A stretch of 64,000 bases of DNA from a virus, in the IMG/VR virus record IMGVR_UViG_3300037245_001077, positions 62,001 through 126,000 of that record. One strand, written 5' to 3'. The notes beneath the pieces were generated by a model. It worked only from the letters and a program-made list of their open reading frames with translations, ran no database searches and was not told the origin of the DNA. The position numbers and the translations under genes are program-made. Shown here piece by piece: positions 11,196-52,006 of this stretch (positions within the stretch are counted from its first letter, which is position 1; every line of letters starts with the position of its first letter).

Positions 11196-11536
11196 GGGGG
11201 CGCACTGGTTTTGACAGGGATGTTTGACGAGAGGGAGAAGCGTGTCGTGTTTGCTTTCGGCGTTAACGAAGGCTACTCGTTTAGTTGACGAATTTGAACA
11301 ACTACCCTTAGCGGCATAGTTCCGCTAACGTGGTCCTAGAAACTCCACCTATCTGGAGACCACGCTATTAGGTGGGCTGAGGTTTCCGTGCTCCATTTGC
11401 AGAGGAAGGCGTAAAGCTCATGTAGGTTAACTTCCTCATCTTAAAAGTAGGGCTTGCTTGAGCCTATCAAGCTACACACGTAGAAGGCTCTTAGATCCTT
11501 CCTTGGACGTGGGTTCGATTCCCACCGCCTCCACCA
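11196..11536 (+). ncRNA. ssrA: tmRNA (transfer-messenger RNA)
   Basis: The 5' end GGGGGCGCACTGGTTTTGAC and the 3' end with T-arm GTGGG-TTCGATT-CCCAC and CGCCTCC-A-CCA form the tRNA-like domain. The acceptor stem is 7 bp with one G-U pair. The tag reading frame runs 11272-11319 and would encode ATRLVDEFEQLPLAA before TAG, ending in the LAA signal recognised by ClpXP-type proteases. The stop lies in a GCGG/CCGC hairpin. It frees stalled ribosomes by trans-translation. The resume codon (GCT at 11272) is inferred; the C-terminal part of the tag is secure. Confidence 0.92.
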
Positions 11537-12946: not shown

Positions 12947-13021
12947 CGCGGAGTGTAGCAGCGGTAGCTAAGCTGGCTCATAACCAGATGGTCGGGGGTT
13001 CGAATCCCCCCTCCGCAACCA
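12947..13021 (+). tRNA. Initiator-type tRNA-fMet (CAT)
   Basis: Acceptor CGCGGAG/CTCCGCA has the C1-A72 mismatch typical of bacterial initiator tRNA, and the D stem TAGC/GCTA has the A11-U24 pair. Anticodon loop CTCATAA, T arm GGGGG-TTCGAAT-CCCCC, CCA encoded. The anticodon stem carries TGG/CCA rather than three G-C pairs. Confidence 0.9.
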
Positions 13022-13027
13022 AGTTTA

Positions 13028-13055
13028 GGGGGTGTTCTTTCACCCCTTTTCTTTA
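13028..13055 (+). terminator. Intrinsic terminator
   Basis: GGGGTG-TTCTTT-CACCCC followed by TTTTCTTT, directly after tRNA-fMet. Confidence 0.7.
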
Positions 13056-13070
13056 TTGTCTGGAGAGAGT

Positions 13071-13223
13071 ATGACCCGCAACGCTTTGATCCAGGCTATT
13101 ATCGAGATGGTTACATCTTCTTTACCCAAGAAGATAACGTTGACCAAGAAGATTGGCAAGGATTTGTGGGTAACGGATACGAAGAGAATGCTCGCCCTTA
13201 TGAAGAAGAAGAGGAAGAAGTAA
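13071..13223 (+). CDS. Small basic protein with shared N-terminal peptide (member 1)
   Basis: The start at 13071 follows GGAGAG. The N-terminus MTRNALIQAIIEM is a divergent copy of the MTREELIEAIVE peptide seen in the next genes. The rest of the 50 residues is lysine-rich and ends in KKKRKK. The layout of a short acidic/hydrophobic helix plus a basic body suggests a targeting or propeptide segment on a nucleic-acid-binding payload. This is inference; no family is recognised. Confidence 0.55.
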   Translation: MTRNALIQAIIEMVTSSLPKKITLTKKIGKDLWVTDTKRMLALMKKKRKK

Positions 13224-13224
13224 C

Positions 13225-13590
13225 ATGACCCGCGAAGAGCTTACCGAAGCCATTGTTGAAGCAGTTATCGGTTCGCACGAGGCGGGTGTAGCTATCAATA
13301 CCATGTACAACCAGCATCCAAAGCTCTTTAAGAAAATAAACAAGTGGGAATCAGGGAAACGACGGCGTTTGCAGGTTATGAGAAAATTACGGTTGTCTAA
13401 GGATGACGATTTTGATATTAATGATAAGGCGGTAAGCCACTCTACACGCAAAGCGCATAAGTGGTTGTCTAAACGAAAGAATCCGTTAAATCGGACGTTT
13501 CAGGATCGGGTAAAGGCCGTAACTCGTAAGCCTTCAAAGCAAGTAGCGAAGGACGCGCATTACAATATGCGTTCTAGAATGACTTATTAG
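13225..13590 (+). CDS. Basic protein with shared N-terminal peptide (member 2)
   Basis: 121 residues beginning MTREELTEAIVEAVIG; the remainder is strongly basic (Lys/Arg/His) and probably helical. IVE|A fits the (L/I)xE|(A/G/S) rule of T4-type head protease sites. It starts one base after the preceding stop. No similarity to the bodies of the other members is visible. Confidence 0.6.
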   Translation: MTREELTEAIVEAVIGSHEAGVAINTMYNQHPKLFKKINKWESGKRRRLQVMRKLRLSKDDDFDINDKAVSHSTRKAHKWLSKRKNPLNRTFQDRVKAVTRKPSKQVAKDAHYNMRSRMTY

Positions 13591-13600
13591 AGGAAATAAC

Positions 13601-13642
13601 ATGTTCGTGACAACGATTAAAACCGAGGAGGAAAAGATCTAG
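13601..13642 (+). CDS. 13-codon micro-ORF, candidate
   Basis: An ATG with an AGAGGAAATAAC site reads MFVTTIKTEEEKI and stops just before a terminator. It may be a leader peptide or chance. Another 13-codon frame (17155-17196) has a similar start and end. Confidence 0.25.
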   Translation: MFVTTIKTEEEKI

Positions 13643-13646
13643 GATA

Positions 13647-13700
13647 GCCCTGGACATACCTTCGGTGTATCTCCAGGGACCGTAAGGTCTCTTTTTTTGT
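13647..13700 (+). terminator. Intrinsic terminator (tandem hairpins)
   Basis: CCCTGGA/TCCAGGG encloses an inner TTCG-capped stem. It is followed by a short GACC-GTAA-GGTC hairpin and seven T residues. Confidence 0.75.
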
Positions 13701-13708
13701 GTCTATGA

Positions 13709-13782
13709 GCCGGTGTAGCATAATGGCAATGCGCGTCTCTTGTAAAGACGGAGATCCAGTTCAACTCTGGCATCCGGCTCCA
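13709..13782 (+). tRNA. tRNA-Thr (TGT)
   Basis: D stem GCAT/ATGC, anticodon stem CGTCT/AGACG with loop CTTGTAA, T-loop TTCAACT, CCA encoded. The acceptor stem GCCGGTG/ATCCGGC has two mismatches at its inner end. Confidence 0.85.
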
Positions 13783-13787
13783 ATATT

Positions 13788-13862
13788 CACCCTGTAGAAC
13801 AATGGTCAGTTTACCGGGCTTTCAACCCGATGATCGGGGTTCAACTCCCCGCAGGGTGACCA
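13788..13862 (+). tRNA. tRNA-Glu (TTC)
   Basis: Acceptor CACCCTG/CAGGGTG, anticodon loop CTTTCAA, T arm CGGGG-TTCAACT-CCCCG, CCA encoded. Confidence 0.9.
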
Positions 13863-13866
13863 ACTT

Positions 13867-13942
13867 GGCGGTGTCTGCTAACGGTTAGGCAACATGGTTC
13901 TCACCCATGAAATGGCGGGTTCGATTCCCCCCACCGTCACCA
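13867..13942 (+). tRNA. tRNA-Glu (CTC)
   Basis: Acceptor GGCGGTG/CACCGTC, anticodon stem CATGG/CCATG with loop TTCTCAC, T-loop TTCGATT, CCA encoded. One T-stem mismatch. Confidence 0.9.
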
Positions 13943-13954
13943 TAGGAGATCAAC

Positions 13955-14107
13955 ATGAACGGCGACCGAAACGACAAGATGTCCGAACTCATGCGAGCAA
14001 TTCGCTGGGGGTGGGACTGTATGTACCCTGTCCGTATCAAGGGTAGTGAGAAACGTCGTTTGCGTCGAAAATACCGTCACGATGCTAAACGTGAGATAGC
14101 CCTGTAG
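13955..14107 (+). CDS. Small basic protein overlapping a tRNA (50 aa)
   Basis: The ATG follows TAGGAGATCAAC. The 50-residue product starts MNGDRNDKMSELMRAIRWGW and ends in an Arg/Lys-rich tail. Its stop TAG lies inside the D arm of the next tRNA (TGTAGCTC), so the gene and tRNA-Ile(GAT) overlap by 10 nt. No family recognised. Confidence 0.55.
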   Translation: MNGDRNDKMSELMRAIRWGWDCMYPVRIKGSEKRRLRRKYRHDAKREIAL

Positions 14108-14172
14108 CTCAGTGGTAGAGCAGAGGGTCGATAACCCTCGTGTCCGTGGTTCGAATCCACGTGGGGCTACCA
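14098..14172 (+). tRNA. tRNA-Ile (GAT)
   Basis: Acceptor AGCCCTG/TGGGGCT, anticodon stem GAGGG/CCCTC with loop TCGATAA, T-loop TTCGAAT, CCA encoded. Confidence 0.92.
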
Positions 14173-14179
14173 TTTACAC

Positions 14180-14255
14180 ACCCCCATGACGCAACTGGCA
14201 GCGTAGCTGGCTCTTAACCAGTATGTTGAAGGTTCGACTCCTTCTGGGGGTACCA
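14180..14255 (+). tRNA. tRNA-Lys (CTT)
   Basis: Acceptor ACCCCCA/TGGGGGT, anticodon loop CTCTTAA, T arm GAAGG-TTCGACT-CCTTC, CCA encoded. Confidence 0.92.
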
Positions 14256-14258
14256 TGT

Positions 14259-14333
14259 GGGATCGTGGCGCAATGGAAGCGCAACAGGCTTTTAACCTGA
14301 ATGTTGAGAGTTCGAGTCTCTCCGGTCCCACCA
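14259..14333 (+). tRNA. tRNA-Lys (TTT)
   Basis: Acceptor GGGATCG/CGGTCCC, anticodon loop CTTTTAA, T-loop TTCGAGT, CCA encoded. Confidence 0.92.
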
Positions 14334-14344
14334 CCTTCTTCCTT

Positions 14345-14352
14345 CTTTATTT
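14345..14352 (+). promoter_or_regulatory. Recurring CTTTATT element (possible late promoter)
   Basis: CTTTATTT lies 14 nt before the next start, directly after a tRNA. The same element sits in many short gaps before genes of this phage. Confidence 0.35.
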
Positions 14353-14365
14353 CTTGGGAGATGCT

Positions 14366-14599
14366 ATGACCCGAGAAGAACTTATTGAAGCCATTGTTGA
14401 AGTGATGCAGCGAAGTAAACATCCTCTAACGGGTGGTCATTTCAGTTTTCCTCCTCCTATGAAAACAAGAGCAGGGCAGTGGACAAGACGGAAGCGTTTG
14501 AGGGTTGTTTCTGGTGCTATGACAGGTAAAGACCCTAGCATAACGAAATCTATGGCTTTTGCTTCTGAAATAGCTCGAAGAAAACGAGCAAACAAATAG
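14366..14599 (+). CDS. Basic protein with shared N-terminal peptide (member 3)
   Basis: The start at 14366 follows TTGGGAG; the longer frame upstream runs through tRNA-Lys. 77 residues start with MTREELIEAIVEVMQRS, the best copy of the shared peptide, followed by a Pro/Phe-rich linker and a basic C-terminus rich in Arg/Lys (RRKRANK end). Function unknown; possible head-targeted basic protein. Confidence 0.6.
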   Translation: MTREELIEAIVEVMQRSKHPLTGGHFSFPPPMKTRAGQWTRRKRLRVVSGAMTGKDPSITKSMAFASEIARRKRANK

Positions 14600-14610
14600 A
14601 GGATTAAAAT

Positions 14611-14844
14611 ATGACCCGTGAAGAGATTATTGAAGCCATTATCCTTACTGAGTTCGAGCCTTTGACTATGATTGCTGCTGGTGCGGCTACTGGTTACGCG
14701 GCTAGAAAGTTGAGAAACCGTTATAGCGTTAAAGGAGCCACAGGTGCGGCTAAGAGAAGTTCGGCTATCTCGAAGGCATATGCGAAGAAGGCTGAGCGGC
14801 ATACCGCAAGGGCAAAGTTCCTTACTGCTAGAAAGAACGCATAA
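14611..14844 (+). CDS. Basic protein with shared N-terminal peptide (member 4)
   Basis: 77 residues: MTREEIIEAIILTEF, then a small-residue segment (MIAAGAATGYAARKL, glycine-zipper-like) and a basic Ala/Lys/Arg tail. The stop overlaps the next ATG (TAATG). The glycine-zipper plus basic tail also appears in the next two members. Confidence 0.6.
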   Translation: MTREEIIEAIILTEFEPLTMIAAGAATGYAARKLRNRYSVKGATGAAKRSSAISKAYAKKAERHTARAKFLTARKNA

Positions 14845-15944
14845 TGACCCGAGATAAGATTATTGAAGATATTGTTGAAGGCTACGTCAAAGATGTGCTC
14901 ACTTACGATTTGAGTAAGCATCATCCTAGACCCCATGAGCGCTTCCGCTTCAACAACGCAGCCCGTAAAGCCAAAGAGAAGGCACGGGAAGTGTTTAGGA
15001 ACAAAGCCAAGAGCGCACATGATACTCAACCTATTGACGTTTCCAAGTTTGTATCCAAATCTACAGCTCGTAGGGCACCGGGGATCAAAGTCCCCAAAAG
15101 CTATCGCCCTAAACTTAAGATGAGTTCAGCTAGGCGAAAGGGTCCAACCGTTCGCCAACAGCAGGGCAGAAAAGCAGTGTTGGGTGCAGCGGCAGCTATT
15201 GGTGCGGGTATGGTGGCTCATAAGGCGTACAAGTACCATAAGGCCAAAAAGAAAAGAGAGATGCGTGAAGGCTTGATTGAGGCCCTTTCTACTCATAAGG
15301 TCTACAAGGCTAGGATGTTTTCAAAGAAGCCACAATCTTATGCTAAAACAATGACTTATTGGCAAACTCCAGAACAGAAGAGTTTAAAAGCTGTTAAGAA
15401 AAAGATTCCCGTGGTTTCTTTAGAGTTAAGGAGTAAAAAGGATAAGTCTACCCATCAGGTGTCGCTTGCTCCAGATCCTCGTAAGAGGCTTTGGGGGAAA
15501 TTGGCAAAGATGCAGGGGTTTGACCCTAAATCAAAGAAAGCAACGCTTAAACGACGGGCGTTTTATCGTTTGCGTAAGAACAAGTACAAGGTTGTTGAGG
15601 GTGACCTAGGGGACTTCGCTGTAGCCCCAACCGCAGCCGTAGACGCTTCCCCGATCCATAAAGAGCAGAGGGATCGGTATTGGATGATCAAGAACCGTAA
15701 GAAGATCAAGAACATGATAGTGAAAGAGGTTTTTGACGACACCTATGGTTCGAGCGTGCTTGACCGAGCAGCACGGGTGGAAAAATCTACAAACTTTATT
15801 GCTAAGGCGAAAAAGCTTAAAAGCCTTGTTGGTAAGGCGAGAAAGCTTACTAAGGATTATGAGCTTGGTATGTACCACGGTGCGGGCAAAATGTCTAAGA
15901 TGAATATCTCTTTGGGTAACAAAAAATTTGGGAAGATAGGGTAG
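14844..15944 (+). CDS. Long basic protein with shared N-terminal peptide (member 5)
   Basis: 366 residues. MTRDKIIEDIVEGYV at the N-terminus; IVE|G fits a T4-type head-protease site. A small-residue hydrophobic stretch (LGAAAAIGAGMVAHKAY, about residues 113-129) is followed by a second partial copy of the peptide (MREGLIEALS, about 136-145). The rest is highly basic and probably extended or helical. It may be an internal head or ejection protein; no family is recognised. Confidence 0.6.
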   Translation: MTRDKIIEDIVEGYVKDVLTYDLSKHHPRPHERFRFNNAARKAKEKAREVFRNKAKSAHDTQPIDVSKFVSKSTARRAPGIKVPKSYRPKLKMSSARRKGPTVRQQQGRKAVLGAAAAIGAGMVAHKAYKYHKAKKKREMREGLIEALSTHKVYKARMFSKKPQSYAKTMTYWQTPEQKSLKAVKKKIPVVSLELRSKKDKSTHQVSLAPDPRKRLWGKLAKMQGFDPKSKKATLKRRAFYRLRKNKYKVVEGDLGDFAVAPTAAVDASPIHKEQRDRYWMIKNRKKIKNMIVKEVFDDTYGSSVLDRAARVEKSTNFIAKAKKLKSLVGKARKLTKDYELGMYHGAGKMSKMNISLGNKKFGKIG

Positions 15945-15952
15945 GGGTTAAC

Positions 15953-16225
15953 ATGACACGCGAAGAAGTGATTGAAGCCATTGTATACGAGATGACGCAA
16001 GAGAAAAAAGATAAGTGGAAGTCTCGTGCCAAGAAAACTGCAATCGGGGCTGGTATAATTGGAGTAGGTGTTCTTGCTACGAAAGCTCCTAAAGCTAAGC
16101 GTTATCATGCTTTAGGTAAAAAGGTGTCTTCTACGGTGGATAGTAGCGCTTACAGACAAGCTTTGGTTTCTAAGAACAAATATGGATTGCATGTTGACAA
16201 ATACTATGGTTCTTCTTCTTTTTAA
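15953..16225 (+). CDS. Basic protein with shared N-terminal peptide (member 6)
   Basis: 90 residues: MTREEVIEAIVYEMTQ, then KKTAIGAGIIGVGVLATKAP (glycine-zipper-like hydrophobic segment, about residues 26-45) and a Lys/Ser/Tyr-rich tail. The start has an AGGGGTTAAC site. The hydrophobic segment resembles those in members 4 and 5, hinting at membrane activity. Confidence 0.6.
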   Translation: MTREEVIEAIVYEMTQEKKDKWKSRAKKTAIGAGIIGVGVLATKAPKAKRYHALGKKVSSTVDSSAYRQALVSKNKYGLHVDKYYGSSSF

Positions 16226-16228
16226 GGC

Positions 16229-16257
16229 TTGACAACGGTAACAAAAGATGCCATACT
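16229..16257 (+). promoter_or_regulatory. Sigma-70-type promoter
   Basis: TTGACA at 16229-16234, a 17-nt spacer and CATACT at 16252-16257. It starts a transcript of about 115 nt that ends at the terminator before tRNA-Asp. Confidence 0.6.
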
Positions 16258-16263
16258 AAATCA

Positions 16264-16377
16264 GTAATGAAGAATTTTCTATATACCCTCGTTGATTGTG
16301 TAGCCCACTTTGATAGTTGGCTTTAGGGGGGTTTTTGTCTTTTCGTCTTTGACACCCCCTGCACAAGGGGGTTTTTT
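16264..16377 (+). ncRNA. Short promoter-to-terminator transcript, candidate small RNA
   Basis: The interval between the promoter at 16229 and the terminator at 16355 has no gene above 12 codons (a possible MKNFLYTLVDCV). It may be a small RNA or an attenuated leader of the tRNA cluster downstream. Confidence 0.35.
16355..16377 (+). terminator. Intrinsic terminator
   Basis: CCCCCT-GCACA-AGGGGG followed by six T residues. Confidence 0.85.
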
Positions 16378-16384
16378 AGTATTC

Positions 16385-16461
16385 GGGGGTGTAGTCTAGT
16401 AGAGTAAGGCCCTGGATTGTCAGTCCAGTGATCGCCGGTTCGAGTCCGGTCACTCCCGCCA
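16385..16461 (+). tRNA. tRNA-Asp (GTC)
   Basis: Acceptor GGGGGTG/CACTCCC, anticodon stem CTGGA/TCCAG with loop TTGTCAG, T arm GCCGG-TTCGAGT-CCGGT, CCA encoded with G73. Confidence 0.92.
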
Positions 16462-16481
16462 AGTTCTTTGAAAATTAGTGT

Positions 16482-16566
16482 GCTGAGGTGGCGAAGTTGG
16501 TAGACGCGCTGGTCTTAGGAACCAGTGTCTTCGGGCGTGTGGGTTCGAATCCCTCCCTCAGCACCA
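16482..16566 (+). tRNA. tRNA-Leu (TAG)
   Basis: Class II tRNA with a long variable arm (TGTCTTCGGGCG region). Acceptor GCTGAGG/CCTCAGC, anticodon loop CTTAGGA, CCA encoded. Confidence 0.92.
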
Positions 16567-16577
16567 AAATATCGTGT

Positions 16578-16653
16578 GGGCTGTCATGTTCCAAGGGGGC
16601 GAGGAGCACTTGCAATGCACCTGTGGAGGGTTCGATTCCCTTGCGGTCCACCA
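16578..16653 (+). tRNA. tRNA-Ala (TGC), atypical D arm
   Basis: Acceptor GGGCTGT/GCGGTCC with several G-U pairs, anticodon loop CTTGCAA, T arm GAGGG-TTCGATT-CCCTT, CCA encoded. The D arm is irregular (GTTC/GGGC) and the anticodon stem has one mismatch. Confidence 0.75.
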
Positions 16654-16657
16654 AGTT

Positions 16658-16731
16658 GTGAGGGTAGTGTAATGGCAGCACGAGAGTTTGTGGCACTCTC
16701 AGAGCGGATTCAAATTCCGTCCCTCACCCCA
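16658..16731 (+). tRNA. tRNA-His (GTG)
   Basis: Acceptor GTGAGGG/CCCTCAC with C73 as expected for His, anticodon loop TTGTGGC, T arm GCGGA-TTCAAAT-TCCGT, CCA encoded. Confidence 0.9.
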
Positions 16732-16736
16732 GTTTC

Positions 16737-16807
16737 GGTTTTGGGGGTCCGACACAGTGTTACAAGCTACCTCAGAGGTAGTTCAAGGGCACTCTACAAA
16801 ATCCCCA
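16737..16807 (+). ncRNA. tRNA-like remnant without a T arm
   Basis: GGTTTTG/CAAAATC can form an acceptor stem followed by C-CCA, and GCTAC-CTCAGAG-GTAGT an anticodon arm reading CAG (Leu). The T arm is missing or unrecognisable and the D arm is unclear. It sits exactly between tRNA-His and tRNA-Cys. It may be a decayed tRNA or a minimal armless one. Confidence 0.4.
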
Positions 16808-16811
16808 TTTG

Positions 16812-16885
16812 AGGGTGGTGGCCGAGAGGCTAGGCAGGGGACTGCAAATCCTTTTACGCGGGTTCAAATCCCGCCCACCTTTCCA
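16812..16885 (+). tRNA. tRNA-Cys (GCA)
   Basis: Acceptor AGGGTGG/CCACCTT, anticodon loop CTGCAAA, T arm GCGGG-TTCAAAT-CCCGC, CCA encoded with T73. Confidence 0.9.
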
Positions 16886-16886
16886 T

Positions 16887-16972
16887 GCCAGTATAGACCT
16901 CTATGGAGGGGGGACGGGTTGTAGCCCCGTTGTTGCAAGGCCCGCAAGGTTCGATTCCTTGTACTGGCACCA
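16887..16972 (+). tRNA. tRNA-Tyr (GTA)
   Basis: Class II tRNA. Acceptor GCCAGTA/TACTGGC, anticodon stem ACGGG/CCCGT with loop TTGTAGC, long variable region, T-loop TTCGATT, CCA encoded. Confidence 0.9.
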
Positions 16973-16975
16973 TTT

Positions 16976-17051
16976 GCCTCTGTAGCTCAGGTAGTAGAGC
17001 GCGAGACTGAAGATCTCGGCGTCGGGGGTGCAAGTCCTCCTGGGGGCACCA
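16976..17051 (+). tRNA. tRNA-Phe (GAA)
   Basis: Acceptor GCCTCTG/TGGGGGC, anticodon stem CGAGA/TCTCG with loop CTGAAGA, CCA encoded. The T-loop TGCAAGT departs from TTCRANN. Confidence 0.88.
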
Positions 17052-17054
17052 TTT

Positions 17055-17130
17055 AGGCAGGTAGCTCAGTTGGTAGAGTTGCTGGTTTACACCCAGTCTG
17101 TCATCGGTTCGAATCCGGTCCTGCCTACCA
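17055..17130 (+). tRNA. tRNA-Val (TAC)
   Basis: Acceptor AGGCAGG/CCTGCCT, anticodon loop TTTACAC, T arm ATCGG-TTCGAAT-CCGGT, CCA encoded. Confidence 0.92.
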
Positions 17131-17134
17131 TTCA

Positions 17135-17142
17135 CTTTATTG
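17135..17142 (+). promoter_or_regulatory. Recurring CTTTATT element (possible late promoter)
   Basis: CTTTATTG lies just after tRNA-Val and 51 nt before the adhesin-like gene at 17193. Confidence 0.35.
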
Positions 17143-17154
17143 TTTGGGGTATGT

Positions 17155-17196
17155 ATGTTTCGTGAAGATTATTTTATAAAACGGGATAAAATATGA
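17155..17196 (+). CDS. 13-codon micro-ORF coupled to the next gene, candidate
   Basis: MFREDYFIKRDKI is read from an ATG after GGGGTATGT; its TGA overlaps the next gene's ATG (ATGA). It may be a leader for translational coupling or chance. Confidence 0.3.
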   Translation: MFREDYFIKRDKI

Positions 17197-18068
17197 CGGA
17201 TAGAAATTTAGATTATGACTATGCTGCAAAGCAACGAGATATTACTCGTGAGCAGTATGCTAAAGGAACATATATTTATGCTGGTTATAGTCCTGCAACA
17301 CCTTTAGTGTGGAATGTTGAGGATCAGCCGATTGGCTCAGGTGCTCCGGCAAACGTGTTTGACGCCTGGGGCGAGGACTTGGAGGTCCGGGCGATCCCTG
17401 TGGATGGGAAAGAGCCGCTGACGCCGTTCACCAAGGAGCTTCATGCAAAAACAGGGAACCCTGGATATCTCTATGGGCTGTACTTCACATTATTGCTCGA
17501 TGGTTTTGATATTGATTTGAATAATGGTAAATTCCGGGTTGAAATTGTGGCTCGGCATGTTGTCCCAGATCCAGAATTTCAGCCCGGTCAATACTTACAG
17601 CTTGGTGAGGACGACTATTACCCAGAATGGGATACGTGGCGCATGTTCAAAGCCGGGTTTCTTTCTGAAGAGTCCGGCGAAAGTGATGTTCAATCTTGGC
17701 ATTGGGAGTTTGGTGGTGAACTATATAATTCGTTCTATGACTACAAGGTAAACTGGGAGTTCGGAACACCAATTGTCGGATACACTATCCACCAGATCGA
17801 GGTGGATTTCCAAGCTGGCGTGTTCGAGCAACGCATCGTTGGTCATTGGGCAGGAGATCAAGGAGAGCAATCATCTTGGTGGGTTAAGGCTCCTCGCGCC
17901 GCTGAATTTCCGGCTGGAGAACAGTCAGCACAGACGCTCATATTATGGCTTCAAGATAAAAACAGCGGAGAGGCGATGGTTACTCAGCTTTGGCTTGGCC
18001 CAATTACTGACCCATTCCCAAATGGCGCGGTTTTGACATCGAATATCGGGTTTGGAAATAGTTCTTGA
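17193..18068 (+). CDS. Adhesin-like virion protein, paralogue of two downstream proteins
   Basis: A 291-residue beta-rich protein. The first ~45 residues are AT-rich in coding, then composition shifts to higher GC. The C-terminal WLGPITDPFPNG aligns with endings at 22656 (WFGKLSDDFPAH) and 23515 (WVGTSDDAWPSL). Many Trp/Tyr and beta-strand stretches suggest a lectin-like sandwich. It stands alone between two tRNA clusters. A host-recognition role is inferred. Confidence 0.5.
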   Translation: MTDRNLDYDYAAKQRDITREQYAKGTYIYAGYSPATPLVWNVEDQPIGSGAPANVFDAWGEDLEVRAIPVDGKEPLTPFTKELHAKTGNPGYLYGLYFTLLLDGFDIDLNNGKFRVEIVARHVVPDPEFQPGQYLQLGEDDYYPEWDTWRMFKAGFLSEESGESDVQSWHWEFGGELYNSFYDYKVNWEFGTPIVGYTIHQIEVDFQAGVFEQRIVGHWAGDQGEQSSWWVKAPRAAEFPAGEQSAQTLILWLQDKNSGEAMVTQLWLGPITDPFPNGAVLTSNIGFGNSS

Positions 18069-18093
18069 CAAGCCCTTTATTGGGTGTTAGAGT
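18065..18093 (+). promoter_or_regulatory. Sigma-70-type promoter, candidate
   Basis: TTGACA at 18065-18070, a 17-nt spacer and TAGAGT at 18088-18093. Confidence 0.5.
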
Positions 18094-18099
18094 GATTAA

Positions 18100-18237
18100 G
18101 TTATGAAGAGATTATCCTCAAGGTTGTGGCAACAGAGCGGCTCGAATCCGAGTCGCCCAGGAGAGCTGTAACTAAGGGGTAAAGATGCCAATTCGCCCGT
18201 TCCGTTCTTACCCCCTAGTACAGTAGGGGGTTTTTTA
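18100..18237 (+). ncRNA. Short promoter-to-terminator transcript, candidate small RNA
   Basis: About 140 nt from the promoter at 18065 to the terminator at 18211, preceding the second tRNA cluster. It holds only two micro-frames (22 codons at 18103; 13 codons read MPIRPFRSYPLVQ after AAGGGGTAAAG). It has the same architecture as 16229-16377. Confidence 0.35.
18211..18237 (+). terminator. Intrinsic terminator
   Basis: CCCCCTA-GTACAG-TAGGGGG followed by six T residues. Confidence 0.85.
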
Positions 18238-18271
18238 TTGATCTAAGTTCTTTGAAAACAAAAAGTTATGT

Positions 18272-18348
18272 CCGAGAATGGCGCAGTTTGGCAGCGCACT
18301 TGGTTTGGGACCAAGGTGTCGAAGGTTCAAATCCTTCTTCTCGGACCA
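18272..18348 (+). tRNA. tRNA-Pro (TGG)
   Basis: Acceptor CCGAGAA/TTCTCGG, anticodon stem CTTGG/CCAAG with loop TTTGGGA, T arm GAAGG-TTCAAAT-CCTTC, CCA encoded. Confidence 0.92.
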
Positions 18349-18349
18349 T

Positions 18350-18434
18350 GGAAGGTACCGTCTATGGAGACAAGCGGTTTTGAACACCGTAGGCACGTGT
18401 AAGCGCGGGGGTTCGATTCCTCTACCTTCCTCCA
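18350..18434 (+). tRNA. tRNA-Ser (TGA)
   Basis: Class II tRNA with a long variable arm. Acceptor GGAAGGT/ACCTTCC, anticodon loop TTTGAAC, T-loop TTCGATT, CCA encoded. Confidence 0.9.
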
Positions 18435-18444
18435 AGTTGTGTGT

Positions 18445-18519
18445 TCGGGCATGGTGTTAGTGGTAGCATACGAGGTTTCCACCCTCTGGGGCCGGGTTCG
18501 AGTCCTGGTGCCCGAACCA
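18445..18519 (+). tRNA. tRNA-Gly (TCC)
   Basis: Acceptor TCGGGCA/TGCCCGA, anticodon loop TTTCCAC, T arm CCGGG-TTCGAGT-CCTGG, CCA encoded. Confidence 0.9.
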
Positions 18520-18529
18520 AAATTTATGT

Positions 18530-18603
18530 AGGGGTATAGTGAAATGGTATCACGGCAGATTCCAGACCTGCTTTTCCGGGTTCAAATCCTGGTACCTCTG
18601 CCA
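18530..18603 (+). tRNA. tRNA-Trp (CCA)
   Basis: Acceptor AGGGGTA/TACCTCT, anticodon loop TTCCAGA, T arm CCGGG-TTCAAAT-CCTGG, CCA encoded with G73. Confidence 0.9.
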
Positions 18604-18609
18604 AAGATT

Positions 18610-18698
18610 GGAAGGGTGGCTGAGTGGTAACAGCGCCGGGTTGCTAACCCGAGGCCGCGCTTCGGCGTGCGAGGGTTCGATCCCCTCTCCTTCCTCCA
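18610..18698 (+). tRNA. tRNA-Ser (GCT)
   Basis: Class II tRNA. Acceptor GGAAGGG/TCCTTCC, anticodon stem CCGGG/CCCGA with loop TTGCTAA, long variable arm, T arm GAGGG-TTCGATC-CCCTC, CCA encoded. Confidence 0.9.
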
Positions 18699-18703
18699 AG
18701 TGT

Positions 18704-18816
18704 TGAACGGTGTGGCGTGGCAGCGTCAGGTTTTCCGTTAAGGAGATCATCCCTCCACTGCCTAATCGGAGAATGATGGGAGCTGGGTGGGGAATCCAGC
18801 CACCGTTCACTTTTTT
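18704..18816 (+). ncRNA. Unassigned structured RNA in the tRNA array
   Basis: TGAACGGTG (18704-18712) pairs perfectly with CACCGTTCA (18801-18809), followed by six T residues. Just inside the 3' strand is a T-arm-like hairpin GCTGG...CCAGC with a 9-nt loop. A further arm pairs ATCAT/ATGAT and CTCC/GGAG. It occupies a tRNA slot between Ser and Arg but has no clear anticodon arm or CCA. It may be a small RNA ending in a terminator or a heavily diverged tRNA. Confidence 0.5.
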
Positions 18817-18818
18817 GA

Positions 18819-18895
18819 GGCCCTGTAGCTCAGCGAACAGAGCATATGGCTACGAACCATAGTTGTCGGGGGTTTGAATCCCTCCAGGGCTTCCA
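18819..18895 (+). tRNA. tRNA-Arg (ACG)
   Basis: Acceptor GGCCCTG/CAGGGCT, anticodon stem TATGG/CCATA with loop CTACGAA, T-loop TTTGAAT, CCA encoded. A34 is normally deaminated to inosine by host TadA. Confidence 0.9.
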
Positions 18896-18898
18896 TTT

Positions 18899-18974
18899 GC
18901 ACCCGTGGTCTAATGGCAAAGGCACTGCGTTTCTACCGCAGCAGATGTGGGTTCGACTCCTACCGGGTGTTCCA
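18899..18974 (+). tRNA. tRNA-Arg (TCT)
   Basis: Acceptor GCACCCG/CGGGTGT, anticodon stem CTGCG/CGCAG with loop TTTCTAC, T arm GTGGG-TTCGACT-CCTAC, CCA encoded. Confidence 0.92.
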
Positions 18975-18984
18975 AAACTTATTC

Positions 18985-19063
18985 GGCACGGTAGCTTAGC
19001 ATGGCCTAAAGCAGTAGTTTGTTAAACTAATGATCGTAGGTTCAAATCCTACCTGTGCCGCCA
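18985..19063 (+). tRNA. tRNA-Asn (GTT)
   Basis: Acceptor GGCACGG/CTGTGCC, anticodon loop TTGTTAA, T arm GTAGG-TTCAAAT-CCTAC, CCA encoded with G73. The D-loop is slightly long. Confidence 0.9.
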
Positions 19064-19069
19064 AATTTT

Positions 19070-19156
19070 GCTGGAGTGGCTGGAATTGGTATACGCAGGG
19101 GACTTAAAATCCCTGGCCGAAAGGTCGTGTGGGTTCGACTCCCACCTCCAGCACCA
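19070..19156 (+). tRNA. tRNA-Leu (TAA)
   Basis: Class II tRNA with a long variable arm. Acceptor GCTGGAG/CTCCAGC, anticodon loop CTTAAAA, T-loop TTCGACT, CCA encoded. Confidence 0.92.
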
Positions 19157-19161
19157 GCTAT

Positions 19162-19238
19162 GCCGCTCTGGGCCAATTGGTAGAGTCGGGGGTCTCAAAA
19201 GCCCTTTGTTCCGAGTTCGAATCTCGGGGGCGGCACCA
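19162..19238 (+). tRNA. tRNA with anticodon CAA (Leu by codon), short variable loop
   Basis: Acceptor GCCGCTC/GGGCGGC, anticodon stem GGGGT/GCCCT with loop CTCAAAA, T arm CCGAG-TTCGAAT-CTCGG, CCA encoded. The anticodon would read UUG, but the variable loop is short, unlike a normal tRNA-Leu, and the D stem is poor. Confidence 0.7.
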
Positions 19239-19241
19239 TTT

Positions 19242-19317
19242 AGCGGAGTAGCTCAATTGGTAGAGCACTGGACTCTGAATTCAGTTGTTGTAGGTTCAAA
19301 CCCTACCTCCGCTGCCA
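19242..19317 (+). tRNA. tRNA-Gln (CTG)
   Basis: Acceptor AGCGGAG/CTCCGCT, anticodon stem CTGGA/TTCAG with loop CTCTGAA, T arm GTAGG-TTCAAAC-CCTAC, CCA encoded with G73. Confidence 0.92.
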
Positions 19318-19392
19318 TTTTGATTGCAGAAACTGACACTTTTTGGTAGGTTACGCGAATGAAAAGCACTGTTTGTGGTCATAATGACTACT

Positions 19393-19468
19393 AGGGGAGT
19401 AGCTCAATTGGTGGAGCAACAGGCTTTGAACCTGTTGGATGTGAGTTCGAACCTCACCTCCCCTTCCA
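19393..19468 (+). tRNA. tRNA-Gln (TTG)
   Basis: Acceptor AGGGGAG/CTCCCCT, anticodon stem ACAGG/CCTGT with loop CTTTGAA, T arm GTGAG-TTCGAAC-CTCAC, CCA encoded. Confidence 0.92.
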
Positions 19469-19474
19469 TGTATA

Positions 19475-19482
19475 CTTTATTG
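19475..19482 (+). promoter_or_regulatory. Recurring CTTTATT element (possible late promoter)
   Basis: CTTTATTG lies directly after tRNA-Gln(TTG) and before the membrane/zinc-ribbon gene. Confidence 0.35.
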
Positions 19483-19497
19483 AAGGCCATGTGTGCT

Positions 19498-19677
19498 ATG
19501 GACACTTTTATCGTTTTGCTAATTGGGGTTGTCGCTTTGATAGCGATTGCTATGGGGTTGAGTGACCGATACTCTCCTCCTTGTCCGAAATGTGGAAAGG
19601 GTCTTAAGATTCTAGGAGCAGACTATCTATGTATCTCGTGTGACAGGGTTTACTCAGAGGATGAAATTCCAACTTAG
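19498..19677 (+). CDS. Membrane-anchored zinc-ribbon protein
   Basis: The exact start is uncertain: in-frame ATGs at 19468 (at the tRNA end), 19489 and 19498 are possible; I give 19498. One hydrophobic helix (about residues 4-22) is followed by CPKCGKGLKIL and CISCDRVY, a four-cysteine ribbon on the cytoplasmic side. It ends with an acidic tail. Function unknown. Confidence 0.55.
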   Translation: MDTFIVLLIGVVALIAIAMGLSDRYSPPCPKCGKGLKILGADYLCISCDRVYSEDEIPT

Positions 19678-19693
19678 TTGTGGCTGCAAAGGC

Positions 19694-19722
19694 TTGACAA
19701 ACAACCCTACACCATCTATGAT
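19694..19722 (+). promoter_or_regulatory. Strong sigma-70-type promoter
   Basis: TTGACA at 19694-19699, a 17-nt spacer and TATGAT at 19717-19722. It drives the run of genes from 19811. Confidence 0.75.
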
Positions 19723-19766
19723 TCTAGTGCTATGACAACTGGAATTCTTCACCAATCTATTCATTT

Positions 19767-19786
19767 GCCCGCCTCTTTAGGTGGGC
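19767..19786 (+). promoter_or_regulatory. Hairpin in the 5' leader
   Basis: GCCCGCC-TCTTTA-GGTGGGC forms a strong stem between the promoter at 19694 and the AAGGAGG site before 19811. No T-run follows, so it is not a plain terminator; it could protect the mRNA or bind a regulator. Confidence 0.5.
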
Positions 19787-19810
19787 CTTGCTGTTTAAGG
19801 AGGAAAAACA

Positions 19811-20194
19811 ATGAAGTTGTATGTTTTGTTTGAGCAACCGGATGAAACGTATCCGGGGCAGTATGCGCCGTTAGCCGTTACGGTACTCGATGAGTACACT
19901 GTGGATAATTCCGGAAGATCGCTTCACGAGGCTCAGGAGGCAGAACTTGCTCGTCTTTCTATGAAGGAAGGGTTTGATCCTACAGATGCTAAGTGGGCCT
20001 GGGTTGAGGTGGATCTTGGTGTGACTGAACAGTTGATCCGAGATGCTATTCTTCAGCCTGCCCTCGCTGTCCAAGGTGTAGTAGCAGTTCCGGCTGCTCC
20101 TCAAGGGCAGAAACACCCTTCTTATCAGGCCATTACCGTGACTAGAGGAAGGCCAGGAGCAGGAAGAATTGTTGACGATGAAATTGTGGAGTAA
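19811..20194 (+). CDS. Hypothetical protein
   Basis: 127 residues with an AAGGAGGAAAAACA site. An N-terminal alpha/beta part starts MKLYVLFEQPDE and an acidic C-terminus follows a Pro/Gly-rich linker. First gene behind the strong promoter at 19694. Function unknown. Confidence 0.55.
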   Translation: MKLYVLFEQPDETYPGQYAPLAVTVLDEYTVDNSGRSLHEAQEAELARLSMKEGFDPTDAKWAWVEVDLGVTEQLIRDAILQPALAVQGVVAVPAAPQGQKHPSYQAITVTRGRPGAGRIVDDEIVE

Positions 20195-20197
20195 CCC

Positions 20198-20500
20198 ATG
20201 CCCAAGTATAAACGTTATGGGTATGTGGTGGTGGAAAGGTTCTCAAAGCCTTTCGGATTAGTGGCATGTACAAATGTTGGCTTTCACCTTAATCCCCAAA
20301 AAGCGCAGGAACAGGTTGATGCTATAATCGAGTCCGCTGGAGAGGGTAAAGTCGTTGCAGATGAAACAGTTACAGGCAAAGACGATTTTGTCCCCTCTAT
20401 CCGTCGTCATGTCTTAATTGAATACCCTGGTCACGAGACTCTCCAGGTTCTCATCCAGCGATGGTATGTGGAGGTTGGGAGAGATCGCCATGGGGGATAG
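20198..20500 (+). CDS. Hypothetical protein
   Basis: 100 residues, basic N-terminus (MPKYKRYGYVVVERF), mixed alpha/beta. It starts 3 nt after the preceding stop and overlaps the MarR-like gene by 11 nt. Not recognised. Confidence 0.5.
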   Translation: MPKYKRYGYVVVERFSKPFGLVACTNVGFHLNPQKAQEQVDAIIESAGEGKVVADETVTGKDDFVPSIRRHVLIEYPGHETLQVLIQRWYVEVGRDRHGG

Positions 20501-20888
20501 CTATTATGAGAGTGCGCTGTTACGTCTTCGAAGGGTAGCTGCCTACTTGTCCTTGCGGTATGGCGACGTTGTCAAACACAAAGGTCTTACCCCAGTTCAG
20601 TATGAGGTTTTACTCTACGTGGATTCGTGCTTTCCCTTTTGTTCGGTGTCTGAAGTAGCGCAATTTATGGTGGTAGATAAGTCCACCTCGTCACGGGTGC
20701 TACGTGGGATCGAAGGAAAGGGACTCATACGTATTGTTCACGATACCGAAGATCGTAGAAAACGCCAAGTCATATTGACGAATGAAGGAACAGGCGTTGT
20801 GGACGATTGTCGTAAAGCGTGGATGGTGGTTGAGAAGGATGTTAGGACTAAATACGACGATGCCATTGAGCATCTGGAAATCACTTAG
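20490..20888 (+). CDS. MarR-family transcriptional regulator
   Basis: 132 residues. LTPVQYEVLLYV, then SVSEVAQFMVVDKSTSSRVL as the recognition helix, and a wing DTEDRRKRQVILTNEG are the typical MarR core in the right order. The flanking helices would form the dimer interface. MarR proteins are dimeric repressors, often released by small ligands. Its operators are not identified; genes of this run or the promoter at 19694 are candidates. The start at 20490 avoids a long overlap upstream. Confidence 0.85.
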   Translation: MGDSYYESALLRLRRVAAYLSLRYGDVVKHKGLTPVQYEVLLYVDSCFPFCSVSEVAQFMVVDKSTSSRVLRGIEGKGLIRIVHDTEDRRKRQVILTNEGTGVVDDCRKAWMVVEKDVRTKYDDAIEHLEIT

Positions 20889-20900
20889 GGGGTAGAGCAC

Positions 20901-21122
20901 GTGGCGCATAAGGTAACTTTCGAAAAAAAGGTGGGCGGTGACTGGAAACCTATTCCTTCGGTTGAGCTTCGAGCGGGGGACGTAACACGGATGATAGAAA
21001 ACGGGGCTATTCTAACAGCAGAAGATGGGCGTACTACCGAGTACCGCGTTGCTAAGTTGAACGGGGTGGACCCTGATAGCCACCGGTCTTTTGACTTGGG
21101 CTTAGAACCTATTATTACCTAG
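20901..21122 (+). CDS. Hypothetical protein
   Basis: A GTG start with a GGGGGTAGAGC site; 73 residues with beta-strand pattern, including ELRAGDVTRMIENGAILTAE. Position right after the regulator suggests the same operon. Not recognised. Confidence 0.5.
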   Translation: MAHKVTFEKKVGGDWKPIPSVELRAGDVTRMIENGAILTAEDGRTTEYRVAKLNGVDPDSHRSFDLGLEPIIT

Positions 21123-21131
21123 GAGGAAATT

Positions 21132-21392
21132 TTGGACGCAGTTGTAGATGTGGTTAGAGAAAAGTATGGTGATGAGGCGGCAGAAAGGCTGGCAGAAGCT
21201 TTAAAGTCGTCAGGGGGAACGCCAATCTCCCCGCAGTCCAGTCTCGACACGAGGGTAGTTCTTGCTATTCTCGCCTCGTGTGCTTTACTGATTGGGAAAG
21301 ATCCTGCGACTGTGGACGTAGAGGACATCGCAGAGGTAGCGTTCTCCCTTAGCAATAGAATGCTTGATCCATATGGTAAAACTAAAGAGTAA
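21132..21392 (+). CDS. Hypothetical helical protein (TTG start)
   Basis: A TTG start behind TAGGAGGAAATT. The 86-residue product is alpha-helical with an Ala/Leu-rich second half. It precedes an intrinsic terminator and so closes the operon from 19811. Confidence 0.5.
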   Translation: MDAVVDVVREKYGDEAAERLAEALKSSGGTPISPQSSLDTRVVLAILASCALLIGKDPATVDVEDIAEVAFSLSNRMLDPYGKTKE

Positions 21393-21416
21393 ACTTTTAG
21401 GAAAGAGTACTTTGGA

Positions 21417-21447
21417 GCCGGGTTTTTGACCCGGCTTCTTTATTTTC
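21417..21447 (+). terminator. Intrinsic terminator
   Basis: GCCGGG-TTTTTGA-CCCGGC followed by TTCTTTATTTT. The tail includes the recurring CTTTATT element. Confidence 0.75.
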
Positions 21448-21462
21448 TGATAGGAGATTATT

Positions 21463-21783
21463 ATGAGTAGTAAATATGCTGGTGCGATGTTGAAAGCAAC
21501 CAAAGTTGGTGGTAGGCGTTACACCACGGTAAAATCTTTGAATAAGGCTAGAGCACTTGTTCAGGCTGCTGAGAAAGCTTCTCATGGTAAGGTTATCCAA
21601 GCCAGTGAGATTTACCGTGATGACCTTATTGAAGTTCTTGTGGACACACTTATGGAGAAGGATAAGTGTGATGACAAGAAGGACGACAAGGACGACAAGA
21701 AAGACAAGAAAGACAAGAAAGAGAATCCCTTCGCTAAGTTCAAGAAAAAGAAGAAGAAAGATGACGAAGAGGATGACGATTAA
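21463..21783 (+). CDS. Charged basic/acidic protein with internal copy of the shared peptide
   Basis: 106 residues. N-terminal half basic; residues about 49-63 (YRDDLIEVLVDTLME) resemble the MTREELIEAIVE peptide. The C-terminal third is a Lys/Asp tract with repeating DDKKD/KDKK units that is surely disordered. The stop overlaps the next gene, which is itself a member of the family. Confidence 0.55.
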   Translation: MSSKYAGAMLKATKVGGRRYTTVKSLNKARALVQAAEKASHGKVIQASEIYRDDLIEVLVDTLMEKDKCDDKKDDKDDKKDKKDKKENPFAKFKKKKKKDDEEDDD

Positions 21784-21986
21784 TGAATCGTGAAGAGTTA
21801 ATCGAGCTGTTGGTGGAAGAAGCTCTCAAAGACTTCCCTGGTAATGACAAAGAATCAAAGTACAAACGTATGAAGCTTCATATCATGGCAAGTGCCCGTA
21901 AAGGTCGTAAGAGTGGAAAAGACTTTAAGGCTTACGTGTACGGAGCAATGAGAAATCGTGGGTGGAAGCCCACAAGAGAGAGGTAA
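21783..21986 (+). CDS. Basic protein with shared N-terminal peptide (member 7)
   Basis: 67 residues: MNREELIELLVEEALKDFPG, then a basic helical domain with an LHIMASARKGRKSG core. LVEE|A approximates a T4-type head-protease site. It starts at TAATG with the previous gene, well outside the tRNA block, showing that the peptide is not confined to that locus. Confidence 0.6.
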   Translation: MNREELIELLVEEALKDFPGNDKESKYKRMKLHIMASARKGRKSGKDFKAYVYGAMRNRGWKPTRER

Positions 21987-50188: not shown

Positions 50189-52006
50189 ATGCCTGAAAAT
50201 AAATTGATTCAGGGCTTTATGCGTATGACTGGGCTGGATAAGGTTATTCAGCGTGAAGTAGCTCTACGCGCACAGCTCGGGGGTATCCAAACTCAATTCG
50301 CTGGTGGTGATGACCTTGTTGGGGATTTGGCTACTATTGAAGAGGCCCTAAGTCAGTTCAATATGATTACCCGGATGCATCGTGAACGTAGGATGCGTTA
50401 TCGGGATTACGAAGCGATGGACAACTACGGAGACGTATCCGTAGCTTTAGATATCTATGCGGAAGAGGCTACTCAGACTGATCTCGTTAAGGACGAGAAC
50501 CTCTGGGTAACGGGTGACGATGCTCGTGCAGTAGAAGAGGTGCAAAAATTTCTTGTTAAGCACCGTATGCATACCCTGATCCAGGGGTTTGCTCGGAATC
50601 TTGCTAAGTATGGAGACATGTTCCTATCCTTGAGGTATACGTATGAGGGGATTGATCGTATTCTCTATCTTCCCCCGGACTATATCCACCGTATTGGCCC
50701 TAGTCTGGATCAGATTAAGCACTTCAAGCTGGAGCACCAGCTTGCCAAGGTTTCTCCCCGTCAAGATGGGCTGTTGCTCCCTTGGGAGTGTGTCCATTTA
50801 AGATTGCTTTCGTTCGGGTTCTCCACTCTTTATGGGCGTTCTATGATTGAGCCTGCACGTAAGCGTTGGTTGCACCTAAAACTTCTTGAAGATGCGGTTG
50901 CTATCTACCGTTTGAATCGGGCTGTTGAGCGGATCGTTTTCTACATCGATGTGGGTTCTGCTTCACCTTCTGAGTCTCTGCGGATTGTAAACACCTACAA
51001 ACGGAAGTTTGGAAATAAGCGTTCTTACATTGATCCGTCGCAGGGTACATTCGAGCAGCAGTATGACCCCCACAACATGTTGGAAAACATCTACTGGCCT
51101 GTGAATAGTGCTACTGAGCGATCTCGCATCGAGAAGCTGAACCCTCCGCCTGAGCAGGGACAACTTCAGGATCTTGATCACTTCAACGAGAAACTTTATG
51201 TGGCTCTAGGTATTCCGCGTGATTACCTAACTGGAGAAACTTCAGGAAGCTGGAATAGCCGGGAAGCTTTGGCTCTTCAAGATGTTCGATTCTCCCGTAA
51301 GCTACATATGCTTCAGATTGCTCTCCTAGAGGGCCTGGAGACCCTGTGCCGCTTCCACCTTGCTGTCCTGTGGGGCGATCCTGACAGAGCGGTAGCAGCT
51401 CGGTTTAATCTCCATCTAGCGGATATCTCTAAGGTAGCTCGCCAACAGTACGACACCGTTATGCTTAATCGTATCCAGCTCTTGACCATGATGAATGATC
51501 TTGGTACTCAAATGAGCTTTAACCGGGACGTGTGGGTACCGTTTGTTGTTGAGAACTTCTTCCCTGATATTCCGAAAGAAATGATTTCGCAGTTGATCAT
51601 CCCTGATGAAGAGTTGGCTGCGGCAGGAGATGAGTTAGACGCTATGAGAAATCCTCCTCCTGCTGCGGCAGCAGCTAAGAAACCTGCTGCGGCAGCAGCC
51701 AAGAAACCTGCTGCGGCAGCAGCCAAGAAACCTGCTGCTAAAAAGAAGAAGACTACTACTGAGGTTATCCGGCACACGATCATGAATGATTTGTTGAGCC
51801 GTAATCTCGTAGAAGATAAGGACAAAAAACTTTTAGAAGATCTCCTTGCTGTAAGTGGGACCATACAGGGTCCACAGGATTTCTCTTTTACTTTAGACCA
51901 CCCTGTAGAAATTCCACGGAAAGTTTTACAAGAGTTGGTGAAGCAACATTCGAGGAAGAAGAAGCCTAATAGTGTCCTCGTGGAGACAACCAATGGGGGT
52001 AAGTAG
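50189..52006 (+). CDS. Portal protein, T4 gp20-like
   Basis: 605 residues. LEDAVAIYRLNRAVERIVFY followed by IDVG (about 233-256), LPPDYIHRIG (161-170) and KLNPPPEQGQLQDLDHFNEK match landmarks of the T4 gp20 portal family. The dodecameric ring forms the DNA channel and docks terminase. Near residue 495 it carries three AAAAAKKP repeats and AAKKKK, a histone-H1-like Ala/Lys tail not normal for portals, encoded by a 24-bp tandem repeat at about 51657-51740. A final ~85-residue segment follows. Confidence 0.88.
   Translation: MPENKLIQGFMRMTGLDKVIQREVALRAQLGGIQTQFAGGDDLVGDLATIEEALSQFNMITRMHRERRMRYRDYEAMDNYGDVSVALDIYAEEATQTDLVKDENLWVTGDDARAVEEVQKFLVKHRMHTLIQGFARNLAKYGDMFLSLRYTYEGIDRILYLPPDYIHRIGPSLDQIKHFKLEHQLAKVSPRQDGLLLPWECVHLRLLSFGFSTLYGRSMIEPARKRWLHLKLLEDAVAIYRLNRAVERIVFYIDVGSASPSESLRIVNTYKRKFGNKRSYIDPSQGTFEQQYDPHNMLENIYWPVNSATERSRIEKLNPPPEQGQLQDLDHFNEKLYVALGIPRDYLTGETSGSWNSREALALQDVRFSRKLHMLQIALLEGLETLCRFHLAVLWGDPDRAVAARFNLHLADISKVARQQYDTVMLNRIQLLTMMNDLGTQMSFNRDVWVPFVVENFFPDIPKEMISQLIIPDEELAAAGDELDAMRNPPPAAAAAKKPAAAAAKKPAAAAAKKPAAKKKKTTTEVIRHTIMNDLLSRNLVEDKDKKLLEDLLAVSGTIQGPQDFSFTLDHPVEIPRKVLQELVKQHSRKKKPNSVLVETTNGGK
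51657..51745 (+). repeat. 24-bp tandem repeat in the portal gene
   Basis: Three near-identical units of GCTGCGGCAGCAGCCAAGAA plus ACCT encode AAAAAKKP. Such repeats can change copy number by slippage. Confidence 0.8.

Follow-up and report, generated by a model that had tools for sequence, protein, structure and literature searches.

Mullaney and Black reportedly described, in 1996, the capsid targeting sequence of the T4 proteins IPI, IPII, IPIII, and Alt. In the T4 internal proteins and Alt, this sequence is N-terminal, attaches to the prohead core, and is cut off by gp21 (PMC5694885, PMC7411985); for Alt, cleavage takes place at both ends (PMC5694885). Among T-even phages, the bodies of the internal proteins are highly diverse and only the capsid targeting sequence is conserved (PMC3012670). 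In SPN3US, gp53 and gp54 have identical 15-residue N-termini, and phiKZ-type inner head proteins have propeptides (PMC5694885, PMC7411985). In P1, N-terminal residues of DarB are enough to get a reporter packaged into the head, and the authors found no consensus among the Dar proteins (PMC9024508). We found no description of shared targeting peptides outside the T-even phages and the phiKZ-like group in the literature, with most subscription papers lying outside our coverage. Here, we describe a 12-residue N-terminal peptide (the leader), with variants of MTREELIEAIVE, that opens seven nearby open reading frames (ORFs) in a 64,000-nucleotide stretch of the genome of an uncultured phage. This stretch (the window) comprises positions 62001–126000 of the 176,533-base IMG/VR record IMGVR_UViG_3300037245_001077; coordinates are those of the window, except that record positions carry the prefix G. 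We think, with a probability of roughly 0.78, that the leader is a lineage-specific capsid targeting sequence in the style of T4, with a sequence of its own, that marks internal proteins of the head.

An initial annotation, made from the DNA sequence alone, proposed at least seven N-terminal copies of the peptide, and the ORF translations bear out all seven starts that it gave. These ORFs are listed below, along with an eighth that has only an internal copy of the motif; all are on the + strand, lengths are in amino acids (aa), pI is the isoelectric point, and “site” refers to the residue at which the pattern (L/I)xE ends.

13071..13223, + strand: ORF of 50 aa, pI 10.9; leader MTRNALIQAIIE at 13071-13106; site at 12
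13225..13590, + strand: ORF of 121 aa, pI 10.5; leader MTREELTEAIVE at 13225-13260; sites at 8 and 12 (IVE/A junction)
14366..14599, + strand: ORF of 77 aa from the ATG at 14366, pI 11.7; leader MTREELIEAIVE at 14366-14401; sites at 8 and 12
14611..14844, + strand: ORF of 77 aa, pI 10.6; leader MTREEIIEAIIL at 14611-14646; sites at 8 (IIE/A) and 14
14844..15944, + strand: ORF of 366 aa, pI 10.5; leader MTRDKIIEDIVE at 14844-14879; sites at 8 and 12 (IVE/G)
15953..16225, + strand: ORF of 90 aa, pI 9.9; leader MTREEVIEAIVY at 15953-15988; VIE/A only, no strict (L/I)xE
21463..21783, + strand: ORF of 106 aa, Lys/Asp-rich; internal motif copy YRDDLIEVLVD at 21613-21645
21783..21986, + strand: ORF of 67 aa, pI 10.1; leader MNREELIELLVE at 21783-21818; sites at 8 and 12

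The pattern M[TN]R..[LIVT][IT][EQ].[IL][VI] matches exactly these seven N-termini among the 272 genes of the record, as compared to 0.00 per shuffle of the N-termini. When we clustered the N-termini of the record without supplying the motif, the largest cluster was the same seven genes (shuffles had a mean of 1.9 and a maximum of 3). At the nucleotide level, the seven copies have a pairwise identity of 0.68 over codons 1–12, which ends sharply after codon 12 (0.28 over codons 13–22), and the identity upstream of the starts is 24–31% (0.24 at -60 to -21). Within codons 2–12, different codons are used in 60 of 139 pairs of codons that encode the same residue. Because synonymous codons vary among the copies, it is the leader peptide and not the DNA that is conserved, which indicates that selection on the protein keeps this peptide on otherwise unrelated bodies.

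The seven bodies have no convincing similarity to each other in pairwise comparisons. They are basic, with charges of +8 to +62 and pIs of 9.9–11.7 (the median pI in the record is 5.7), so the initial description of basic, unrelated bodies was accurate. Profile searches of the leader proteins against Pfam and PHROGs gave nothing convincing. We did not find homologues of the bodies in IMG/VR or among the phages in GenBank, or homologues of the leader proteins in eleven related contigs, apart from the 21783 body and a block of 14844, both in the relative G005; a search of viral contigs for relatives of the 13225..13590 protein also found none. By these searches the leader bodies are orphans, as are the bodies of the T4 internal proteins. 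The sequence GGGAGA stands upstream of the ATG at 14366.

The same genome encodes a T4-type head. The T4-type portal that the initial annotation had recognized was confirmed:

50189..52006, + strand: T4-type portal, 605 aa (PHROG portal, 3.9e-38)

A prohead protease had been suggested as something to look for beyond the end of the window, and there is one about 0.8 kb past it (G126778-128313), albeit of family S77 rather than S80 as anticipated. This 511-residue protein matches Peptidase_S77 in Pfam (PF03420, 1.9e-17) and head maturation protease in PHROGs (7.6e-41), and as a profile it matches the crystal structure of T4 gp21 (5jbl, 3.8e-13). Its blocks GELDHP and GISSRGSGS are unchanged across nine phages; by eye, their counterparts in T4 gp21 are GELNHP and GVSSRGLGS. 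The same protein carries an acidic, mostly helical C-terminal scaffold part, which makes it a fusion of protease and scaffold. In nine of nine phages read, the protease gene also holds an internal ATG (at G127687 in this record) behind an AGGAGG-type ribosome-binding site (MDRLQFIKDRLQ and variants). This nested start probably yields the acidic scaffold part as a separate product as well, like Nu3 of lambda, which is made within C; in T4, the scaffold and the protease are separate genes (22 and 21). An AlphaFold2 model of the protease-scaffold protein was poor (pLDDT 51) and was set aside. The next gene (G128347-129723) encodes a gp23-type major capsid protein (Pfam Gp23, 7.9e-69). In 11 of 11 phages read, LVES and LLEN are present near the N-terminal end of this protein, and by the T4 rule these are candidate cut sites. 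The genome thus has T4-type counterparts of gp20 (portal), gp21 (protease), and gp23 (capsid protein), in this order.

In T4, (L/I)xE is the pattern that gp21 cleaves. The initial annotation stated that some copies fit (L/I)xE; six of the seven leaders do, with the pattern ending at residue 8, 12, or both, while 15953 has VIE only. Among all genes of the record, 4.8% have (L/I)xE ending at residue 8 or 12. Beyond the leader sites, the seven proteins contain one site at residue 14 of 14611 and only one other, which lies within the internal copy of 14844. In 21463, G135975, and G136433, the sites are within or immediately beside the motif copy.

Stronger evidence than these counts comes from 14844, whose residues 10–136 resemble a basic ORF of G005. 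The block that follows the putative cut site is EGYVKDVLTYDLSKHHPR in 14844 and EGFFKDMLFYDLSRHHPR in the G005 ORF, where it is preceded by MLA; read on from the site, 14844 has GYVKDVLTYDLSKHHPR, and the G005 ORF has GFFKDMLFYDLSRHHPR straight after MLAE. The IVE/G of 14844 is aligned with LAE/G in the relative. The putative cut site is retained before a conserved block even though the sequence upstream of it differs.

The motif is not confined to this genome or to N-termini. In the window, of the two internal copies in the initial annotation, the one in 21463 stands (that protein has an internal copy only), and the one in 14844 is only weak (MREGLIEALS, 15261-15290). Past the window, ORF G135975-136433 has a C-terminal copy, TREEVIAALVEVFMSE, and G136433-137635 has weaker copies at N-terminal, internal, and C-terminal positions. 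We also examined relatives of this phage, namely the eleven IMG/VR contigs whose capsid proteins are 76–90% identical. The motif recurs in these, mostly in basic proteins, and again at N-terminal, internal, and C-terminal positions. There are N-terminal copies in G011 (MTREEIIEAILE), G009 (MYTREDLIEAIIM), and G005 (MTHEEMRQELIEAIID); internal copies (REELIRRVIE and variants) in the relatives' basic protein whose gene is just upstream of the tail sheath; and C-terminal copies (SREEIISRLVESLL and variants) in a basic protein whose gene stands between sheath and tube, in G000 and several relatives. The portal of G004 and G005 has a motif-like THEEIIEGVVDRLL near its C-terminus.

Across all contigs, including the record itself, there were 28 motif matches above 12 bits, as compared to 2.1 in shuffled proteins (the 28 include the seed sequences). 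In the relatives alone, 13 of 19 proteins with the motif were basic versus 119 of 735 others (Fisher 9e-7, which is only a guide as the phages are not independent). G005 has a counterpart of the 21783 body that lacks the leader (59% over 44 aa). Ahead of some internal copies stand a Met and what could plausibly be a ribosome-binding site (G000 137006, G007 36251, and G005 111767); our guess is that shorter products may also start at such copies and so carry them as N-terminal leaders. A search of IMG/VR with the exact DNA pattern of the leader gave no match. A looser DNA pattern found G011, a true relative, and a single gene of the unrelated phage L058, which we took to be a chance match. As a separate observation, in G133193-133696 and its homologues (the basic protein upstream of the sheath), the relatives' motif copy ends in xxE followed by [TD]T[TM]..[AS]IGG, and by eye this segment resembles the N-terminus of T4 gp24 (LRE-STTTNSNSIGR).

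The same N-terminal clustering was run on seven more phages whose capsid genes are of T4 type, with T4 itself as the positive control. In T4, the clustering recovered ipI, ipII, and ipIII plus gp61.1. The latter (AF158101 18966-19130) is a hypothetical protein of 54 residues whose N-terminus, MKTFKEFIKED, is like the T4 capsid targeting sequence, and it may be packaged. Two other phages had sets of their own:

Streptococcus phage GXN1 (PQ819873), genes at 98803, 122094, 132585, 132841, 134401, and 143096: leader proteins with a shared N-terminus of the MRL[VI][KR]LxE type
Bacillus phage SP-15 (KT624200), genes at 15673, 184806, 195365, and 196812: leader proteins with a shared N-terminus M[PAS]IxF[LV]RE

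In GXN1, these are six unrelated proteins that open with MRL[VI][KR] and have (L/I)xE at residue 8 or 11. Three of the genes stand just downstream of the capsid gene, and the protease is gp21-like, as judged from its GEADHP and GVSSRGQGS blocks. In SP-15, which carries an S77 protease (2.3e-14), four unrelated proteins share the N-terminus as compared to 0.12 expected, and one of them has VRE for LRE. The three that we looked up (SP15_243, SP15_261, and SP15_265) are annotated as hypothetical. We had suspected that two SP-15 leader proteins were ADP-ribosyltransferases (compare T4 Alt), which Pfam and the PDB did not support. No N-terminal clusters with (L/I)xE were found in Listeria LIS04, Maribacter Colly_1, Synechococcus ACG-2014b, or Pseudomonas QdP_Psa3, so the pattern is not universal. 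The chances seem about even that phages with T4-type heads often have a short, lineage-specific N-terminal code, with (L/I)xE at its end, by which packaged and ejected proteins are marked (MTREELIEAIVE here, MRL[VI][KR]LxE on five or six proteins of GXN1, and the set of four in SP-15), and that the code here works internally and C-terminally too.

The leader genes from 13071 to 16225 sit among tRNA genes (12947..19468, + strand). A tmRNA gene (tag DEFEQLPLAA) lies at 11196-11536, with 27 tRNA genes in its region. Between the portal and protease genes, at 53298-53771 (G115298-115771), is a gene for a 157-residue protein with an acidic N-terminal part and a protamine-like tail of Arg/Lys-Pro repeats, which is possibly another packaged DNA-binding protein.

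How well does capsid targeting explain these data? The initial annotation proposed head targeting, and the gp21-type protease and the recurrence of the motif in relatives support that proposal; we amend it in that the peptide is also used internally and at C-termini. A simple N-terminal propeptide would not account for those copies, and other points also weigh against capsid targeting. Leader 15953 lacks a strict (L/I)xE, and the site count is partly inherent, as the motif itself contains LIE and IVE. Because of this and because the bodies have little Glu (about two sites expected, one seen), the scarcity of (L/I)xE in the bodies proves nothing and we gave it no weight. In the relatives G005 and G003, the N-terminal clustering gave no cluster of their own. 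The amphipathic moment of the leader is unremarkable over residues 2–13 and only moderately high over residues 4–12.

The C-terminal and internal copies make a docking motif without obligatory cleavage the main rival. Such a motif would serve head assembly, on the scaffold or the portal, and would hold basic head proteins on the core from any position in the chain; (L/I)xE would be a by-product of a composition rich in Leu, Ile, and Glu. The copies at the C-termini of the proteins encoded between sheath and tube, inside another basic protein encoded before the sheath gene, and in the G004 and G005 portal speak for it, as does the lack of a strict site in 15953, and any LIExIVE peptide would be expected to give sites at both 8 and 12. 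We nevertheless consider it rather unlikely: a gp21-type protease is present and T4 gp21 cuts at (L/I)xE, the site of 14844 is aligned with that of its G005 relative, and since T4 Alt is cut at both ends (PMC5694885), a C-terminal copy is compatible with cleavage. The very basic bodies, encoded among tRNA genes and outside the main head operon, might instead be DNA-binding early proteins for host take-over, with an N-terminus that attaches all of them to one partner during infection and is unrelated to heads. This is improbable given that the relatives' portal and other proteins from the operon for head and tail also have motif copies, and T4 internal-protein genes likewise lie outside the head operon. 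Finally, five of the leader genes are close together and some of the ORFs abut, as might be seen if one small gene or a DNA element at its start had been duplicated recently, leaving a common N-terminus without function. We give this very little credence, as it is largely refuted by the way in which the peptide is conserved at the codon level: the copies use different synonymous codons, similarity stops sharply after codon 12 with none upstream beyond the ribosome-binding region, and the motif recurs on other bodies in other phages.

If the leader is a capsid targeting sequence, then by analogy with T4 we infer the following course. The leader would bind the acidic prohead core, a role that would fall to the scaffold part at the C-terminus of the protease-scaffold protein, and the basic leader proteins would be enclosed as the gp23-type shell forms. 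The gp21-type protease would then cut after LIE or IVE and remove the leader; this removal is likely, if less sure than the targeting. The mature basic proteins would remain with the packaged DNA and probably enter the host with it by ejection. Their bodies might condense DNA, or protect it from host restriction or defence as T4 IPI does.

Outside a few models, proteins that are injected with phage DNA are mostly unknown because homology searches cannot keep up with the rapid evolution of their bodies. With a shared leader, the packaged or injected proteins are named all at once, and if lineage-specific codes exist as suggested above, ejected effectors could be listed from sequence alone. T4 IPI is a packaged protein that acts as a dedicated counter to host defence; with this precedent, the orphan genes that carry a leader make good candidates for novel functions in anti-restriction or anti-defence. 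The targeting-peptide principle would also extend from T-even to distant phages, and SP-15, which grows on Bacillus subtilis, is a cultured phage in which this could be tested.

Among known systems, the encapsulation peptides of bacterial microcompartments are also short terminal peptides on unrelated cargo; here the context is a phage head, and we met no microcompartment shell proteins, though no search was aimed at them. P1 DarB is alike in having an N-terminal signal for packaging into the head, and differs in that here one peptide is common to many proteins. SPN3US and the phiKZ group are alike in having a shared N-terminus on ejection proteins that is cut by a gp21-related prohead protease. 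However, gp53 and gp54 are full-length paralogues, and these phages have an AxE motif and long propeptides, whereas here the bodies are unrelated and the predicted motif is (L/I)xE. The closest match is the T4 capsid targeting sequence. Both systems combine a short N-terminal peptide on unrelated proteins, (L/I)xE, and a gp21-type protease and a gp23-type shell in one genome; both have fast-varying bodies and genes that are partly beside a tRNA cluster (T4 ipI adjoins that of T4). The T4 peptide is MKTYQEFIAE/A (cut before A), in contrast to MTREELIEAIVE here, and no T4 N-terminus matches the motif; twelve residues are too short to show or exclude common descent. This genome also has seven N-terminal members (more than T4), internal and C-terminal copies, and a protease that is fused to the scaffold, and its packaging and cleavage are predicted from the genes. 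The T4-style targeting principle is known and this peptide is new, and we file it as a variant of that principle rather than as a member by descent.

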